DNA of 64,000 nt from Bacteroidota bacterium. GTDB taxonomy: Bacteria; Bacteroidota; Bacteroidia; B-17B0; Aurantibacillaceae. Both the position numbers and the translations under genes were made by a program. Shown here piece after piece: positions 18,741 through 40,153 of the stretch. The stretch is from the NCBI GenBank assembly GCA_013697245.1, contig JACCXH010000073.1:1-64000 (forward strand), written 5' to 3'. Position 1 is the first letter of the stretch. Each line of letters opens with the position of its first letter. The notes under the pieces were generated by a model. It was given only the letters and a program-made list of their open reading frames with translations, did not search any database and was not told the DNA's origin.

Positions 18741-19895
18741 TTAAGAAATCACAACAAGCCCGCTTTGGTTTAACAAATCTTTATATAATGTGCCTTGTCC
18801 GCTTGAACCAGGCAAATATTTCTCTCTATTAAATTCCTCCTCCTTAAGTGTAATTTTTGCGAAAATAGCTATAAACTCTTCTTTAGAAATTACCTCGCCA
18901 ATACGCCCGAAACTTAAGTAAGCATCCTTAAAAAATCGCATTAAAGCGATAAATCCAGTTGACTTATTCAAAATATTATTTGGTAAATTCACATTTGTAT
19001 TCCATGCATTTGGCCATTTTTCTTGAACCGCATAAAAATAGTTCCATAGAATTTGTGCAATTTTTACATCCGTGTCGTCGTCAATGAAAATATTACGAAG
19101 AAAATATTTTTTTAAATCATTCCCTTGAACATATGGTAACTTCGCTTTCTTATCTTCTTTGTTTCTTTTATAGAAATCTCTATCCAACTGAGGATCTTTT
19201 GAAATATAGGAAAGTAGGCTTTTAACGAATGTATCTTGAGTTATGGTTTCATTTTCTTTATCTACAGCTGTTCCGAGTATTTTAATTTTTTTATAAAATG
19301 GGCTTGTTTCTTTTTTTGTTAGTGCCCTAGCTATGTTATGCCCAGTCTTTTGTGGACTTCTACTTTCAGCAAAAGCAAATAAATCCGCGACTAAGGAATT
19401 ACTAACATTTTTTTGTTCTTTGTTAATCGTAGCAAAAACAATAGCTTGATCTTCTAACTCCATATCAATATAAATTGTAACGATACATTGAAACTCTTTA
19501 CCTGGTTTTGTAAAACTCCTTAGGCCAGCAATTCTATGTTGCCCGTCTAGTACCTTTGCCACATCGTCCTTATGACGGACACTCATGATTTTAGTTTCTG
19601 AATTATATTTTGCATTTTCGGATGAAACAGCTAGAATTATACTATTTGGAAAAGTTGCATCAATAAGATTTACATATTTACCAATTACTTTTTCTCGCTT
19701 TTCATCTAACTTTCTTTGTATTCCAATATAATCCTCTAGCTCCCTATTGTCTTTTCCAATTTCCATTCTTCTCACATCAGCAAAAGATATAACTTCCAAA
19801 TCGTCGAAATTAATTGCTCCGATATACATTAATCCAATGGGTTGTTTAACTTCCAAACATTCAAATTCAATATATTGCTCCGTAATTATTTCCAT
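18741..19895 (-). CDS. DGQHR-domain protein (DndB-like)
   Basis: This 384-residue protein has the signature VLDGQHRIAGL at 115-125, with DGQHR at 117-121. It is followed, as in the family, by FATINKEQKNVSNSLVADLF (154-173). DGQHR proteins are ParB-like-fold relatives that include DndB, a regulator in DNA phosphorothioation, and DpdB in 7-deazaguanine DNA modification; many are encoded in defence or modification islands. No dnd or dpd genes are present here. A helical C-terminal half ends with the tail YLPGSSGQGTLYKDLL. The gene is the last of a tightly spaced minus-strand trio: it starts 4 bp after the 4-TM protein stop, and a broken Dam-type methyltransferase leads the trio. Family call strong; exact role inferred as DNA-modification related. 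Confidence 0.88.
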   Translation of the reverse strand: MEIITEQYIEFECLEVKQPIGLMYIGAINFDDLEVISFADVRRMEIGKDNRELEDYIGIQRKLDEKREKVIGKYVNLIDATFPNSIILAVSSENAKYNSETKIMSVRHKDDVAKVLDGQHRIAGLRSFTKPGKEFQCIVTIYIDMELEDQAIVFATINKEQKNVSNSLVADLFAFAESRSPQKTGHNIARALTKKETSPFYKKIKILGTAVDKENETITQDTFVKSLLSYISKDPQLDRDFYKRNKEDKKAKLPYVQGNDLKKYFLRNIFIDDDTDVKIAQILWNYFYAVQEKWPNAWNTNVNLPNNILNKSTGFIALMRFFKDAYLSFGRIGEVISKEEFIAIFAKITLKEEEFNREKYLPGSSGQGTLYKDLLNQSGLVVIS

Positions 19896-19899
19896 CTGA

Positions 19900-20373
19900 T
19901 TAAGTTAAAGCGTTTGCGATATTGTTTGATTCTTCATTTCTTTGAGCGCCAATATCTGGAGTTGGTTTATTACTTAATAATTGTGAATGGTAAAACAATG
20001 CAGTCGCTATAATAAAAAAACTAAATGATATATATTTTATTACAGGTAAATTAGGTCTCGGTGATACGATAATCAGTGCGTACAGTAATGCTAAAATCAA
20101 TAATGCAATCATTATTATCATCGATAATAGCCTCCTCCAATCTGAAGCGCGTACTTTAAACTTATTATATACTAGATATGCTCCGCTCAACAGTGACACA
20201 CTATACAATAGAATTTCGCCTGATTTATAGAATTTACTATACAAAATCGTTTCGGAATTTATTATACCTGCAAAAACCCCAGCAATTGTTGGTAATACAG
20301 TAAATATCAGTATAACGAGTGTTTCAACAATTGCAGTCCAATGGTAATCTTTAAAAAACTGTTTTATTTTCAT
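19900..20373 (-). CDS. Small four-TM membrane protein in the DGQHR module
   Basis: This 157-residue protein has no recognised family. Four hydrophobic segments are visible at about 14-37 (VETLVILIFTVLPTIAGVFAGII), 51-68, 84-105 (LSMIIMIALLILALLYALIIV) and 114-131. A charged loop KFKVRASDWRRL sits between TM2 and TM3, and the C-terminal tail is polar and cytoplasm-like. It starts 2 bp after the methyltransferase stop and ends 4 bp before the DGQHR start, so the three must share one transcript. In defence modules, small multi-TM proteins next to DNA-associated proteins often act as membrane effectors, but nothing in this sequence proves that. Confidence 0.75.
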   Translation of the reverse strand: MKIKQFFKDYHWTAIVETLVILIFTVLPTIAGVFAGIINSETILYSKFYKSGEILLYSVSLLSGAYLVYNKFKVRASDWRRLLSMIIMIALLILALLYALIIVSPRPNLPVIKYISFSFFIIATALFYHSQLLSNKPTPDIGAQRNEESNNIANALT

Positions 20374-20375
20374 AA

Positions 20376-21251
20376 CTATATATTTTTATACAAAAGTTCA
20401 TTATATTTTTTCCGATTCGCTCCTTTACCCCCGATTAAGCTAAAGCGATTAAGTTCAAAGCTTGTTCCAGTATCACCATAAAGCTGTTCTATACTTGTGT
20501 GTGCTGCATTGGTCAAAATAAAATGAGCTCCTTTTTCTTTGACAGCTTCGATATAATTTTTAAGTCTAATTTGATCTTTCCAAGAAAAAATTTTTTGGTT
20601 ATATTTAACGAAGCCATTGTTTTCATGGGCAACGGTGTATGGCGGGTCCAGAAATACAAGATCATTTTTTTTTATTCGATTTAATGATTTGCTAAAATCT
20701 TTTGAACTAAAATAACAATTTTTAAATTGTTTGCTAAGTTCGAGAAGTTCGTTTTCAATTATTTCCTGACCAACATTGCGATAACCATAAGGTACATTAT
20801 ATTGTCCCAATTGATTGACCCTATAAATTCCGTTAAAAGATGTTTTATTTAAATATATAAACTGCGCAGCATTTTTAATTTTATCATTAAATTTTTTAGA
20901 TCTTATATTATAATAAAACTCTTCAGTATTCTTAAATTTATATAACTCTTTAATTAATTGTTCCGGTTTAGATTTCATAATTTGATATGAATTGATCAGG
21001 TCCCTATTTAAATCAGAAAGATATGCCTTGCCAGTAATAATGTTTTTGGATTTCAGATAGATAAATATTGAGCCGCCACCGAGAAATGGTTCGTGATAAT
21101 CGTTAAACTGGTTTGGAATAAACTGATTTAACTGTTTTATTAACTATGTTTTACCACCTGCCCACCTTAGGAATGGCTTAATGGGAATTTCATCTTGTTT
21201 CTCATGAGCCAATTTTTTAATTCTTGTGGCAGTGTTTTTCATAATAGGCAT
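20376..21251 (-). pseudogene. Dam/DpnM-type adenine methyltransferase interrupted by an amber codon
   Basis: Read from the ATG at 21251, this frame would encode 291 residues, the normal size of group-alpha GATC-type N6-adenine methyltransferases. The N terminus has KPFLRWAGGKT (about 25-35). Then TAG at 21146-21144 (codon 36) stops it, where relatives usually have Gln, Arg or Lys, so a single C-to-T change (CAG to TAG) explains it. The frame then continues intact through EPFLGGGSIF (SAM-binding motif), SDLN, the target-recognition region with YLNKTSFNG and NVPYGYRN, and DPPY (202-205). Reinitiation at the ATG at 20978 would give a 200-residue product lacking the SAM motif, presumably inactive. 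A weak AAAGGA lies just before 21251 and supports that start. It leads the trio with the 4-TM and DGQHR genes. Confidence 0.85.
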
Positions 21252-22105: not shown

Positions 22106-22145
22106 TTTTTAAGTTTTTAATGATTTGCAATTTTTGTTGAAAGAA

Positions 22146-22172
22146 AAAACCGCCGCAGGTTGCAGCGGTTTT
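22146..22172 (-). terminator. Intrinsic terminator after the HU-fragment gene
   Basis: The stem aaaaccgc / gcggtttt (22146-22153 with 22165-22172) has an extra gca/tgc pair inside. On the minus strand a T-run follows. It lies 20 bp past the stop at 22192. Confidence 0.75.
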
Positions 22173-22191
22173 AAAAGGAAGGGAATTAGGC

Positions 22192-22473
22192 TTAACGTTT
22201 TATAAACCTGAAAAGAAATTTTAGTATACGCAACGTACTATACTTTATAAAAGATGCAACTATGTAAAATACATTGCTGCCTCTATCAGCAGTATTGTTT
22301 GTAATGGTAATACTAATTTCTTTTGTTTCTTCGGGCTGCATTAATCGTCCCGCATCTGCTTTTGTTAATTTAGAACCCGATGCAATGGCATCTATCAACT
22401 GTTTTTTATCCAGGTAGTTCATTTGTGAAGCAATAGCTACTATCAGCTTCTTAATTTCAGTTACATTTTCCAT
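22192..22473 (-). CDS. Small protein carrying the N-terminal helices of HU
   Basis: This 93-residue protein has residues about 22-45 (LDKKQLIDAIASGSKLTKADAGRLM) that read almost exactly like the first 25 residues of Bacteroidota HU proteins, i.e. the helix-turn-helix base of the HU dimer. The rest of HU, including the saddle strands and DNA-clasping arm, is absent. A 21-residue helical stretch precedes it. After it comes a short beta-like stretch (EISITITNNTADRGSNVFYIV) and a basic, hydrophobic C terminus (ILKFLFRFIKR). It may be a truncated HU able to dimerise, or a domain recruited for a new role. It is flanked by its own terminator. Coding is supported by the similarity; function unknown. 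Confidence 0.65.
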   Translation of the reverse strand: MENVTEIKKLIVAIASQMNYLDKKQLIDAIASGSKLTKADAGRLMQPEETKEISITITNNTADRGSNVFYIVASFIKYSTLRILKFLFRFIKR

Positions 22474-22528: not shown

Positions 22529-23140
22529 TTAATTAACTACAAAAGCAATTTCGGATGTTTGACTGTCGCCGCTGGTATTAATAAATAATACCCTAAAATA
22601 ATATAAGGCACCGCTTACAAGGTTACCAATAGTGGCTCGGCTAACCGTGCTGCTTGAGGCAGTTACCCATGCATTTTGGTTGGTTGGGGCCATACAGTAT
22701 TGCCATTTGTATACCGTTTTTATTTTTGCCTTAACTTTTAAGTTTACAGCGCCACGATCGTCGGTTGCGGCGACTTCAAACTCGGACAGGTTTTTTATGT
22801 GGGGTAGCTTTTTACTATCCATGGCTGCTAAATGCACTTTGCTTTCATCGCCATCGGCAACACCTTCCACGTAATGCCCAAGGTCATTCATTAATTTTAG
22901 TAGCTCGCTTTCTTTATCATGCATAATAGCTTTTTTGCTTTTGCCGCCGTCAACAGCATTATTCCAGGCTATCTCAAGATCGTTAATAGCGGTTACCACT
23001 GTGGCAATTGCAGGTATAGGGCTGGCAAAGGTAGCGGGGTTATTATTAATAGCATCGGTAATTAACCTTGCTTTATTTATTTTATCTGGCACAGAAGTTC
23101 TACTCATATTCAGTGCCACTTTTAAACTATGCTTTTTCAT
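22529..23140 (-). CDS. Fibronectin type III-domain protein
   Basis: This 203-residue protein lacks a signal peptide (it begins KKHSLKVALNMSRTSVPDK). The N-terminal half is helical, including LITDAINNNPATFASPIP and a DLGHYVEGVADGDESKVHLAAMD segment. The C-terminal 90 residues form a fibronectin type III-like sandwich (GAVNLKVKAKIKTVYKWQY, NAWVTASSSTVSRATIGNLVSGALYYFRVLFINTSGDS). Proteins of this layout recur in Bacteroidota without known function and look like cytoplasmic or phage-tail-like structural pieces. It is the first of three small minus-strand genes; its upstream region is the gene-free interval with the 21-bp array. Domain call moderate, function unknown. Confidence 0.7.
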   Translation of the reverse strand: MKKHSLKVALNMSRTSVPDKINKARLITDAINNNPATFASPIPAIATVVTAINDLEIAWNNAVDGGKSKKAIMHDKESELLKLMNDLGHYVEGVADGDESKVHLAAMDSKKLPHIKNLSEFEVAATDDRGAVNLKVKAKIKTVYKWQYCMAPTNQNAWVTASSSTVSRATIGNLVSGALYYFRVLFINTSGDSQTSEIAFVVN

Positions 23141-23537
23141 AATTTCATATTTTATTTGTGACCGCTGAACCAGCTTTTATTGTCATGGGATAATAACTAA
23201 TGCAAGCAAATAGTTATAACATGGCTTAAGAACTTTTTCTGTTTTTAACCGACTGCGAAAACAGGCTGAAAGAGATTGCAGTGCGTAAGCGGTTAAGCAT
23301 ATATGCCGAACGTTTACTGTAAGACCTTTGCTATGTTTCCGAACGCAATAGCGTATTACGGAGTGTTTTAATAAATCTTAAAATCAAATTATACATCAAC
23401 TTAAATACTTAAACGTTTAAAACATAAAAATAGTACAGCTCTTAACGCCTTTTAACAGGGCATTTCAGGGCTTTTTTATAATTGGTTGTGTTTTATAAAC
23501 CAACGGTACATTTAAACCAATTTAGTTACACGTTGCT

Positions 23538-23912
23538 TTATTTTGTATTGAGACAAAATGTTTGCGGCTTTAAACAAAATGTCTTTGTATTAATACAAAG
23601 AAGCTTTGCTTCAATACAAAGGAGTTTTGTCTCAATACAAAATGCTTTAGGTTAAGCCGAAATGATAAAAGCTTAATGCAACATATCTTTGTATTAATAC
23701 TAAGGAGCTTTGGCCCAATACTAACGAGTTTAGGTTAAGCCTAAATAATTGCGGCTTGAGACAAAATATTTGTGTCTTGAAACAAAATAGTTTAGGTTAA
23801 GCCGAAATGTTAATGCCTTTAACCGAAATGTTTCCGGCTTAAGGTAAAATATATATGATCTAAGACAAAATGCCTTAGGGTTTAACCTTAATAATTGTGC
23901 GTAAGGAGAAAA
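23538..23912. repeat. Array of 18 degenerate 20-21-bp units, many palindromic
   Basis: Eighteen consecutive head-to-tail units, fifteen of 21 bp and three of 20 bp, share the consensus T-R-n-TTT-n-G-n-n-TT-n-A-n-n-C-n-AAA-A. The first starts at 23538 and later starts include 23559, 23580, 23601, 23622, 23643, 23663, 23684, 23705 and 23726. About half are good palindromes over 16-18 bp. Unit 23580-23600 contains the perfect palindrome ctttgtattaatacaaag; others carry tttaggttaagcctaaa or ttttgtctcaatacaaaa. The three 20-bp units (23643, 23726, 23788) are one sub-family (tttaggttaagcc) lacking the same base. Period equals two helical turns, so all units would face one side of the duplex. It is either a protein-binding array, a set of RNA hairpins, or the relic of a heptad-repeat gene. 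Confidence 0.75.
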
Positions 23913-23955: not shown

Positions 23956-23995
23956 TAGGTAAATTTACCTATAAAAAGGTAGGTAATATTACCTA
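23956..23995. promoter_or_regulatory. Twin 16-bp palindromes (AGGTA-n-TACCT)
   Basis: taggtaaatttaccta (23956-23971) and taggtaatattaccta (23980-23995) are both perfect palindromes with identical arms TAGGTAA/TTACCTA. They differ only at the centre and are 24 bp apart centre to centre. They look like a pair of operator sites for a dimeric regulator upstream of the metzincin gene. A T-run after the second also allows a terminator-like hairpin. Confidence 0.55.
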
Positions 23996-24208
23996 TTTTT
24001 CTATTAAAACAGATCTCTTAACCTTAATTTCCCATTCTGTTTTTATACATTCGTTACTCTTGTATAAATTATAACTGCAATTTTCCGTCCTGTCCTCTTT
24101 CCCGATCAGTTAAACACAATTCTATTTAACTGGTTTTTACTTTTTTACGCTTGACTAAAATTAAAAATTTTGAACCCATATTAATTAATAACCTCAAAAA
24201 AAACAACC

Positions 24209-37834: not shown

Positions 37835-40153
37835 TTATTTTTTTGATCTTTCCAGTTCTGCCATTTTTTCAGCGCCGGGGTAAACCGACTCATTTGTATA
37901 TAACCGCACCCCCAAAACGCACACATCATCTACTTGTTCTAATGGTCCGATCCAACTCTCAAATTTTTGTTTTAAAACAACTTCCTGTTTATACACATCT
38001 AAGTTATTATTTTCCAACAAAAGTTCTTCTAATTGTTTGTATTTAAATTTTTTACCTTTTGGCCCGCCAAACTGATCCGGAAAACCATCGGTATACAAAT
38101 ATAACATATCGCCTTTTTTTCCTTCAAATGAAAATTCAGTAAAAGGCTCTTTCTTTTCGCCAACACCTACAGGCATTTTATCACACTGCAATTCATTTAA
38201 TTTATTTTCGGAGATCAATACCGGTCTGTTATTTGCGGCAGCATACGTAATCGTATTGTTTTTTTCTTCAATACAGATAAGAATGCCATCCATTCCATCT
38301 TTCCTGCCATTTTGTGAAATGGTCTCTATCAGGCGTTTTCTAACATGATCAAAGATCTCGCAAGGTTTTATTAAGTTTTTTTCTTTGATGGCTTCATTAA
38401 GATAGTTAATATTCAACAAACTCATAAAAGCTCCCGGTACCCCATGGCCGGTACTATCACAAACCGCAAGATAAAAACGTTTATTTTTTTTGGTGGCCCA
38501 ATAAAAATCGCCGCTTACAATATCTTTTGGTTTAAAGAACACAAAACTATCAGGGATGGTTTGATTAACTAATTCGTGATTAGCAATAAGTGTTTTTTGA
38601 ATTTGCAAAGCGTAATTAATAGAATCTACAATTTCTTTTTGCTTTTCGTCTACAATGTTTTTTTGATGCTCTATTTCTTTTTTGCTTTCTTGTAATCCAA
38701 CATTTTTTATTTCTATCTCTTCTTTTTGAGAGTTCAATAAAACATTATCTTTTTGTTTTACCTTATAAGCCCGTAAACTTAGAATCAGCAATACTACTAC
38801 TAAAACCCCTACAACGCTACCTGCGATCAACAAAGTAGTTTGACGTTTGTTTTCTAAAAACGCTTTGTCCTTTTCATTATTTGACAAAGCCAGTTCTTTT
38901 TCTTTTTTATCTAGCTGATTGAAGGAATTTAAAGTGGCGATTCTTGTATCAAATAATTCAGAATTAATAGAATCACGAATAAGCACCGATCTTTCAAAAC
39001 AGCTTAATGCCATTTTATAATCTTTTAAAGCTCTGTATACCTGCGATTGGTTCATGAAAATTACTGCCTCTTCTGTAGTGTTACCTGTTTGCCTTATAAC
39101 AGTTAGGGCTTTGTTTGAAAACTCTAACGATCGGTTGTAATCCTTAAGTGATTTATAACAATCTGCTTTTACGCCTAACAACACGCCATAAGTTTGTTGG
39201 CTTGTTATTGTATCAATAATGGCAAGGCCTTTATTTACTTCAACAAGCGCTTCTGTTGCTTTGTTTATTTCTAATAAATAATTGGCCTTTGTTAAATGCA
39301 AGGAGGCGGTATAATCGTTAAAATGAAGTTGTGCTGCAATTTTTTCCATCTCTTTAATAAAAAATTCGCAGGCCTTCATGTCTTTATTAAATCGTGTAGT
39401 ACTGGTAAGATTATATACCACAATACTTAGGTCACGAATATTATTTTCTTTTTTGTAGGTTTCGTAAGAAGATTTAAAATATTTCTCAGCCTCATCATAT
39501 AAGCCTCTTTTATGATAAATGGTGGCAATGTTTATATACAATTGTGCTTGTTGTAATTTTTGTGATTCACCTTTTAACTGTTTATTTAAAACAACTGCTT
39601 TTTGCAATGTTTCAAGAGCAAGATCGTTCAACTCCGAATTATTATAAACTATGCCAATATTGGTTAAGATCACTATCTGGTTTTCGATCTGATTCCAGCG
39701 CTTTGCGTTATCGAGGCCAAGGTTTAAGTATTTTAGCGCGTTAACATAATCGCCTTTCACCAAATAAACTGAGCCGATATTTGTGTATGCTCCCGTATAT
39801 CGGTCGGGCGAATTATTTTTTTTTCTTAACTCAAGAACTTCCTCACCAACTTTTAAGGCTTCATCTAATTGATTATTCATGCGCAGCAACAATCCTTTAA
39901 CATTCCTACCGGTGATCATGCCATCTACATAATTTATTTTTTCTGCCAGCGCCATGGCCTCTTCATTATACATCTTTGCTGTATCGGTATTGTAATCAAG
40001 ATATTGGTATGCCAGCTCATTCAAATAAAAAACGCGTGCGGTATCTGCGTCCTTATGTATCCGCACCTGTTGCCTTAAACTATCAAGCACAATTTGCTGC
40101 GAAAAAGAAACGCAACAACAAAAAACGGGGATAAGGCTTAAAAGCTTTTTCAT
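37835..40153 (-). CDS. TPR-TM-SpoIIE (PP2C) phosphatase
   Basis: This 772-residue protein has a signal peptide, periplasmic TPR repeats (about 50-400), a TM helix at about 436-458 (LLIAGSVVGVLVVVLLILSL), and a cytoplasmic coiled coil. The SpoIIE-type PP2C domain spans about 525-760: GDFYW (near 546), CDSTGHGVPGAFMS (near 566), YLYTDGFPDQFGG (near 686) and VDDVCVLG, so the metal-binding acids are all present. Such proteins sense a periplasmic signal and dephosphorylate a serine/threonine on a regulatory protein, often a STAS or SiaC-like partner. No partner is encoded nearby. Middle gene of three, 1 bp after its upstream neighbour. Confidence 0.92.
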   Translation of the reverse strand: MKKLLSLIPVFCCCVSFSQQIVLDSLRQQVRIHKDADTARVFYLNELAYQYLDYNTDTAKMYNEEAMALAEKINYVDGMITGRNVKGLLLRMNNQLDEALKVGEEVLELRKKNNSPDRYTGAYTNIGSVYLVKGDYVNALKYLNLGLDNAKRWNQIENQIVILTNIGIVYNNSELNDLALETLQKAVVLNKQLKGESQKLQQAQLYINIATIYHKRGLYDEAEKYFKSSYETYKKENNIRDLSIVVYNLTSTTRFNKDMKACEFFIKEMEKIAAQLHFNDYTASLHLTKANYLLEINKATEALVEVNKGLAIIDTITSQQTYGVLLGVKADCYKSLKDYNRSLEFSNKALTVIRQTGNTTEEAVIFMNQSQVYRALKDYKMALSCFERSVLIRDSINSELFDTRIATLNSFNQLDKKEKELALSNNEKDKAFLENKRQTTLLIAGSVVGVLVVVLLILSLRAYKVKQKDNVLLNSQKEEIEIKNVGLQESKKEIEHQKNIVDEKQKEIVDSINYALQIQKTLIANHELVNQTIPDSFVFFKPKDIVSGDFYWATKKNKRFYLAVCDSTGHGVPGAFMSLLNINYLNEAIKEKNLIKPCEIFDHVRKRLIETISQNGRKDGMDGILICIEEKNNTITYAAANNRPVLISENKLNELQCDKMPVGVGEKKEPFTEFSFEGKKGDMLYLYTDGFPDQFGGPKGKKFKYKQLEELLLENNNLDVYKQEVVLKQKFESWIGPLEQVDDVCVLGVRLYTNESVYPGAEKMAELERSKK

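Follow-up and report, generated by a model that had tools for sequence, protein, structure and literature searches.

A phased non-coding repeat array in a Bacteroidota genome goes with an adjoining FN3-protein gene, and the repeat period goes with the gene family

What reads an array of short, divergent repeats that itself encodes no protein? The question was raised by positions 23538..23912 of the window, by which we mean the whole 64-kb stretch of DNA analysed here. A preliminary description had divided these 375 bp into 18 head-to-tail units (fifteen of 21 bp and three of 20 bp), and the concatenated units indeed reproduce the window sequence at 23538-23912 letter for letter. The array, which is dyad-rich and not assigned to either strand, ends about 400 bp upstream of a gene for a protein with an FN3 domain. 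Its identity at a lag of 21 bp is 0.545. When lags of 15-59 were scanned across the window, it gave the strongest 350-bp periodicity of the entire 64 kb (0.549 at lag 21), and the runner-up, at an unrelated place, reached 0.446 at lag 18. TRF counted 17.9 copies of 21 bp as well as higher-order periods of 62 and 83 bp. A further repeat row at 38624-38726 (2.4 copies of 43 bp) was too short and was omitted from the array counts. With units of 20-21 bp, the proposed period of two helical turns is supported.

Each of the six reading frames of the array contains 7-12 stops. The interval had been called gene-free, which is correct for the array itself but overlooked a conserved RNA and the gene that belongs to the array, both described below. 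The units stand head to tail without spacers and neighbouring ones are about 55% identical, whereas a CRISPR consists of near-identical repeats and unique spacers; the earlier distinction from CRISPR therefore stands.

It had also been suggested that the repeats are a decayed heptad-repeat gene, in which seven codons would account for 21 bp. In its favour, the period is divisible by three, one or more frames are open in many arrays, and a few arrays are alike in translation. This origin is nevertheless hardly credible, given that all six frames are stopped in the window array and in those of loci L016, L030, L096 and L106, and that homologous arrays have periods of 20, 22, 41, 44, 61 and 62 bp. 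For the window array it is refuted, as no open reading frame runs through the repeats. The translated repeats of the upstream arrays at L042, L102 and L112 form a blastp cluster, with heptads that we read as GMWYNR- or GVCFNR-like. Judging from these translations, a few arrays may be coding now or may have been so formerly.

Subirana and Messeguer have described bacterial repeats that do not code for protein and whose size is constant (20-21 or 52 nt) although their sequence varies. In the portions of their paper available to us, they equate 20-21 nt with two helical turns and discuss a polymerising protein or transcribed RNA (PMC8161180). A class of 20-23 nt with several arrays per genome is treated in the accessible parts of PMC8161180, PMC8625621, PMC6749651 and J Bacteriol 2020 e00229-20 (the last via PMC8161180). 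The window array fits this kind of satellite. It has 18 units of 20-21 bp, where the class has at least four repeats of 20-23 nt, its frames are closed by 7-12 stops each, and its sequence is not conserved. A search with its DNA at E up to 1 gave matches in 36 of 41 genomes, all of them short outside the array itself (the best with E 1.8e-4 over 46 bp). Seven of the match loci were inspected, and all of them lacked an array at that place. Rfam, also at E up to 1, gave no covariance-model match to it. As for several arrays per genome, no other such array of at least 100 bp was present in 376 kb sampled from the 4.44 Mb of the window genome outside the window; G129, a genome rich in the genes described below, has many, with eight in 398 kb.

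The gene next to the array (22529..23140, minus strand) encodes a 203-aa protein with an N-terminal helical bundle and a C-terminal FN3 domain, and is multi-copy in relatives. We refer to this protein and its homologues as family I. Of 60 genomes, 14 contained a match to the window protein, counting the genome of the window itself, and a family I profile search of the class found the family in 33 of 197 genomes, with per-genome matches reaching at least 16. For the study of array linkage, 116 loci with a family I match were reduced to 96 unique ones, duplicates being judged by protein residues 20-80. Profile A1 was built from earlier-found loci that had been selected by protein and not by array; 40 further family I places were picked by choice from a larger match list, not taken as its whole. 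An array was counted as in-class if it was at least 80 bp long and had a period of 19-23, 40-44, 60-66, 80-88 or 105 bp.

An upstream in-class array was observed at 84 of the 95 family I loci with at least 250 bp of upstream sequence, or at 85 of 96 if L101, with 162 bp, is counted. The same rule found a downstream array at 11 of 94. Where 900 bp were available on either side of the gene (82 loci), the corresponding numbers were 72 upstream and 10 downstream. Wherever the upstream array was 100 bp or longer, the best-scoring repeat row fell in the period class (82/82). The arrays have a median length of 313 bp and a median gap to the start codon of 241 bp, and 74 of 85 end within 500 bp of that codon; the one at L102 is 1.66-2.0 kb away. 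TRF detected no upstream in-class array at eleven loci with at least 250 bp of upstream sequence (L011, L027, L034, L046, L048, L063, L068, L083, L094, L108 and L113). The downstream arrays belong to L102, L108, L109 and eight more loci. Those at L108 and L109, which start about 100 bp past the stop codon, may have moved to the other side of the gene or may be another gene's.

A blind set from a later search of the phylum gave the same picture. An array was present at four of five full-length homologues, three of the five lying outside the class, vs none of eight FN3-only proteins, the latter from genomes where the search had turned up no full-length family I gene. In the four positives the array lies between -507 and -86 and has a period of 21 or 42 bp; at the fifth there are just 2.1 copies of 85 bp, at -772.

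The linkage has exceptions, and the period class is broadly drawn, as the 11/94 downstream arrays and the unpartnered arrays of G129 indicate. One of the eight G129 arrays is upstream of a family I gene, one is upstream of a gene of a second family, family II, and six have neither directly beside them; this count omits the repeats at L145, which form several in-class rows and are presumed to be probably coding. Arrays without such a neighbour, with periods of 21, 42 or 62 bp, are at L142 10347-11134, L148 278-556 and L149 6706-6906, and further L151 8571-8773 and 13738-14142 and L154 10849-11153. The L142 array pair is upstream of a gene with an AbiJ_NTD4 domain. A different kind of repeat occurs at L071, in a Sediminibacterium MAG, where about 25 copies of 76 bp extend from 90 to 2000 after the family I stop codon; these look like a type II CRISPR array.

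Family II was founded on a 329-aa gene beside one of the G129 arrays. It is unrelated to family I in a profile comparison (hhalign probability 0.13%) and had no match among Pfam, NCBIfam and PADLOC models; one of seven members weakly matched an unannotated PHROG (E 0.018). It is likewise multi-copy, with 13 matches in G129 and 12 in G027, and occurs in 11 of 59 genomes; none was found in the window's own genome. An upstream array was observed at 26 of the 27 family II loci with at least 250 bp upstream, and at all 14 further loci of a second blind set.

The true period of the family II arrays is 41-42 bp. In the comparison of lags, which covers arrays of at least 110 bp (78 of 82 in family I and 25 of 26 in family II), identity at lag 21 exceeded 0.45 in 60/78 family I arrays vs 0/25 family II arrays, and the difference between lag 42 and lag 21 separated the families (Mann-Whitney p=3e-9). 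The same holds within genomes that carry both families, where 24 of 30 family I arrays exceeded 0.45. In a sample of 149 genomes, all ten with family II also had family I, but these are not ten independent events because they come from just four genera. Thus, the repeat period goes with the linked gene family, being mostly 21 bp for family I and 42 bp for family II.

It is worth stressing that this dependence within the same genomes bears on the possibility that a general nucleoid or polymerising protein, unlinked to these genes, binds the arrays and that the gene families merely adjoin. Such a protein has been proposed for constant-size Bacillus repeats (in the part of PMC8161180 we draw on), and the unpartnered G129 arrays mentioned above would suit it. 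We consider it improbable, since the period follows the linked gene family and since array and gene have been duplicated as a unit in genome G033. There, two copies (L029 and L035) are 93% identical over 1358 bp comprising about 30 bp upstream, array, leader, gene and terminator, and show little similarity beyond this block. That two families keep different repeat lengths within the same genomes would be explained most simply if the linked protein binds its own array.

Between loci the unit sequences are almost completely different, and the arrays can be aligned in near relatives only. Array similarity was clearly above permuted controls only at more than about 45% protein identity; below this value, shared 9-mers were hardly more frequent than in the controls. 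The period is kept at 20-22 bp or a multiple far below 45% identity, which means that sequence drifts while length hardly does. In general, the array goes with the gene, by linkage in most loci, by co-duplication and by co-descent in near relatives; it is non-coding; and its period is kept while its sequence is lost.

Alternatively, the repeats could be a passive satellite, born by slippage and unequal exchange, retained neutrally and with an inherited period. The higher-order periods among the arrays (42, 62, 63, 84 and 105 bp) are typical of unequal exchange, and homogeneity is higher in the middle of an array than at either end (0.730 vs 0.678 and 0.699, p=6e-5, 77 arrays). However, the period outlives the sequence memory in many families, also outside the class, and the arrays are placed upstream in most loci, so that we regard this origin as very unlikely. 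Eukaryotic satellite DNA similarly combines a conserved period with fast-evolving sequence and higher-order repeats; here, in contrast, the arrays are short, stand upstream of genes and consist of two- or four-turn units.

The preliminary description had drawn attention to symmetry within the units. Around a dyad between columns 12 and 13, 61% of the cells of the window array are paired vs a mean of 43% after column permutation (p=0.002, 1000 permutations), so the symmetry is significant. About half of the units had been called near-perfect palindromes, and in 9 of 18, six or more of the 8 dyad pairs are formed. The claim that the arms vary together proved marginal (92 of 144 paired cells vs 84.6 in within-column shuffles, p=0.035), and it is weakened further because the units share descent through 83-bp higher-order repeats. 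Selection on symmetry did not hold up as a general rule, as the consensus units of family I arrays are palindromic in just 11 of 85 cases at p<0.05 and 21 of 85 at p<0.1. Palindromy as a universal feature was therefore rejected, most family I units being without a significant dyad. In family II, where one consensus unit was taken from each of 25 loci, 9 stems were significant at p<0.05 (mean 6.24 vs 4.62). Dyads are favoured in the arrays, yet they are not obligatory.

Family I arrays also fold better than column-permuted controls in which dinucleotides were not kept, with z<-1.5 in 42 of 85 and z>1.5 in 2. The sense and antisense strands of these 85 arrays did not differ in foldability (sense more stable in 37, p=0.14). 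Since both strands fold equally well, the signal looks like DNA rather than RNA, and RNA-specific folding of the arrays was rejected for want of a strand bias.

RNA is nevertheless part of the locus. A structured leader of about 130 nt with seven helices lies between array and gene (23241..23371, minus strand) and covaries across the window's genus (12 loci). Under the corrected structure, pairing in these loci reached 77.1% of cells vs 69.4% in shuffles, both sides had changed in 17 pairs vs 8.6, and the covariation score was 0.223 vs 0.142 (0/500 shuffles in each case), bearing in mind that related sequences can exceed shuffles even without structure. Further pair types were not above shuffles (171/500). 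Sliding the partner by one column lowered pairing to 42-44%. Rfam had no match to this interval at E up to 1. Searches with the first model (R1), in which helix 6 was misplaced, returned just the 12 training loci from 60 genomes at E up to 0.01, and one weak extra match (E 0.54) from 78 loci, a subset that leaves L101-L123 among those outside. Other groups of loci have different structured-looking spacers, seen in alignments of 2-4 sequences.

Smaller elements surround the leader. Two putative boxes on the minus strand, ACCGTTGG and ACCAATTAT, lie about 21 bp apart at 23480..23508; by eye, ACCACTTAT-like boxes with this spacing occur between array and leader at same-genus loci and also at L080-L082. 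A possible promoter with the degenerate pattern TGTAC-N-CGTTTA is found at 23410..23437 (minus strand); we take it to be of the extracytoplasmic-function sigma type. It is weak in the window itself, several relatives have TGTAAC-N-CGTTA as the corresponding promoter-like sequence, and in the window's genus it lies between array and leader. The loose form of the latter pattern was present at 16 of 96 loci, in the window (L001) at a different spot from the proposed promoter, and a single promoter type for all loci was therefore rejected. Shortly before the start codon there is a conserved AAAAGC(A/T)GGTTCAGC-like box (23164..23178, minus strand). On the other side of the array, between it and the metzincin gene, the inverted repeats AGGTAAATTTACCT and AGGTAATATTACCT were noticed by eye at 23957-23998 (plus strand).

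Strict Bacteroidetes promoters were found upstream of the array at 7 of 80 family I loci (1.0 expected), at 0 of 80 in the reverse sense, and nowhere between array and gene in 78 loci. These seven make transcription of some arrays probable, and such arrays could work as RNA. The array might then be part of a long 5' untranslated region, together with a structured leader, and its repeat RNA would bind the encoded protein or tune its translation. The covarying leader, the spacers of the other groups, the one-sided promoters and the better-than-control folding all speak for such a role, as does satellite transcription in Bacillus coagulans, reported in the part of PMC8625621 available to us. Yet foldability is equal on both strands, why an RNA should keep a period of 20-22 or 42 nt is not evident, and in the window's genus the possible promoter lies between array and leader; we judge an RNA function of the array to be unlikely.

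We turn next to the adjoining protein as a possible reader of the array DNA. The window protein is basic (pI 9.1), as is family I in general (median 9.1); family II is less so (median 7.6). The structure model of the window protein (mean pLDDT 93.6) shows a helical bundle followed by the FN3 domain. Against Pfam, the window protein hit fn3 alone, at 19.4 bits and below the cut-off of 25. Foldseek and VIA-align, which effectively compared residues 119-203, returned FN3 domains and no DNA-binding fold; for family II, Foldseek gave nothing trustworthy (top rows with rmsd near 48 A over long helices). No replication family in the model library matched the window protein, although absence from a library is not proof. 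The window protein had no match in plasmids or phages, and profile A2 had none in viral contigs.

Iterons, the direct repeats of certain plasmid replication origins, measure about 20-22 bp, are spaced by two turns and have private specificity. They share with the present arrays the repeat size and phasing and, on the explanation proposed here, an adjoining gene whose product binds them and the private specificity. The present arrays differ in several respects: a typical one has about 15 units, which in the window are divergent, many relatives have several copies per genome, no initiator-type protein was recognised, and the window protein had no plasmid match. The parC/ParR and tubC/TubR centromeres are phased repeats on which an adjacent small protein polymerises, regulating its own promoter. 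Here, no ATPase or GTPase of the partner type recurs beside the module in 96 loci, most of them seen over only 3-4 kb, and the helical part of the protein is unmatched in fold. No conserved operon partner was seen in these stretches either. The largest recurrent neighbour family, a repeat-rich protein of secreted type, occurs at scattered positions at 11 of the 96 loci.

Our tentative preference, at a little under an even chance, is that the phased array is docking DNA for the linked protein and controls its own module. We infer DNA binding by this protein from linkage, family-dependent period, co-duplication, co-descent, dyads, the lack of strand bias and the basic character of family I. The module would consist of phased array, leader and a gene for a helical and beta-sandwich protein, with the array as its upstream DNA part. 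The linked protein, alone or as part of a complex, would dock once per unit on the double-stranded DNA, and successive protomers would polymerise on one face of the helix. The footprint would be two turns for the protein of about 200 aa (family I) and four turns for that of about 320 aa (family II). Specificity would be private to each locus, unit and protein drifting together, and this would allow many copies to coexist without cross-talk. The likely output would be control of the module's own transcription, and the structured leader might add a second control at the RNA level.

That array and neighbour form a self-recognising pair with private specificity, in which the repeat length is the footprint of two or four turns, is a further and doubtful reading; if true, a multi-copy nucleoprotein system would account for the constant-size satellites. 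Counted against the docking explanation are the lack of a recognised DNA-binding fold, the not notably basic family II, the dyad-poor majority of family I units, the promoters upstream of some arrays, the eleven array-less loci, the G129 arrays lacking an adjoining family I or II gene, the downstream arrays and the fact that no full-length family I gene turned up in the control genomes. The preliminary description had listed an ancient binding array among its alternatives. This is still the best type of explanation, but it missed the link to the FN3 gene, the structured leader and the conservation of period without that of sequence.

No partner gene is named in the portions of the Subirana and Messeguer satellite papers available to us, and the terms 'Bacteroid', 'upstream' and 'fibronectin' have no occurrence in the main text of PMC8161180. 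Compared with the satellites described there, most arrays examined here are upstream of two multi-copy protein families, have a family-dependent period (21 or 42 bp) and show co-duplication of array and gene, with a structured leader between the two in one genus. Judged by title or abstract opening, none of the open-licence papers listed (12 of 142 in one search) described such an array-leader-gene module. As far as these searches show, neither the partner genes nor a period that depends on the gene family has been described before, and the same applies to the co-duplication and the leader. Such arrays now have a usual address and partner genes with which their repeat length goes. What reads these repeats thus becomes a matter for experiment, using an identified protein and the array of its own locus, and taking the 42-bp array of family II as a built-in control; the leader RNA is a second testable part of the module.

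Further observations concern the other side of the family I gene in the window. A 93-aa reading frame at 22192-22473 (minus strand) has an N-terminus that reads like an HU-family DNA-binding protein, with no Pfam match. It overlaps a weak Rfam match to rli32 at 22142-22283 (E 0.007, far below the gathering score). At 18741-20978 (minus strand) there are a DndB-like gene, a weakly acyltransferase-like gene and a short D12-class DNA methylase gene, which possibly represent a variable island beside the module.
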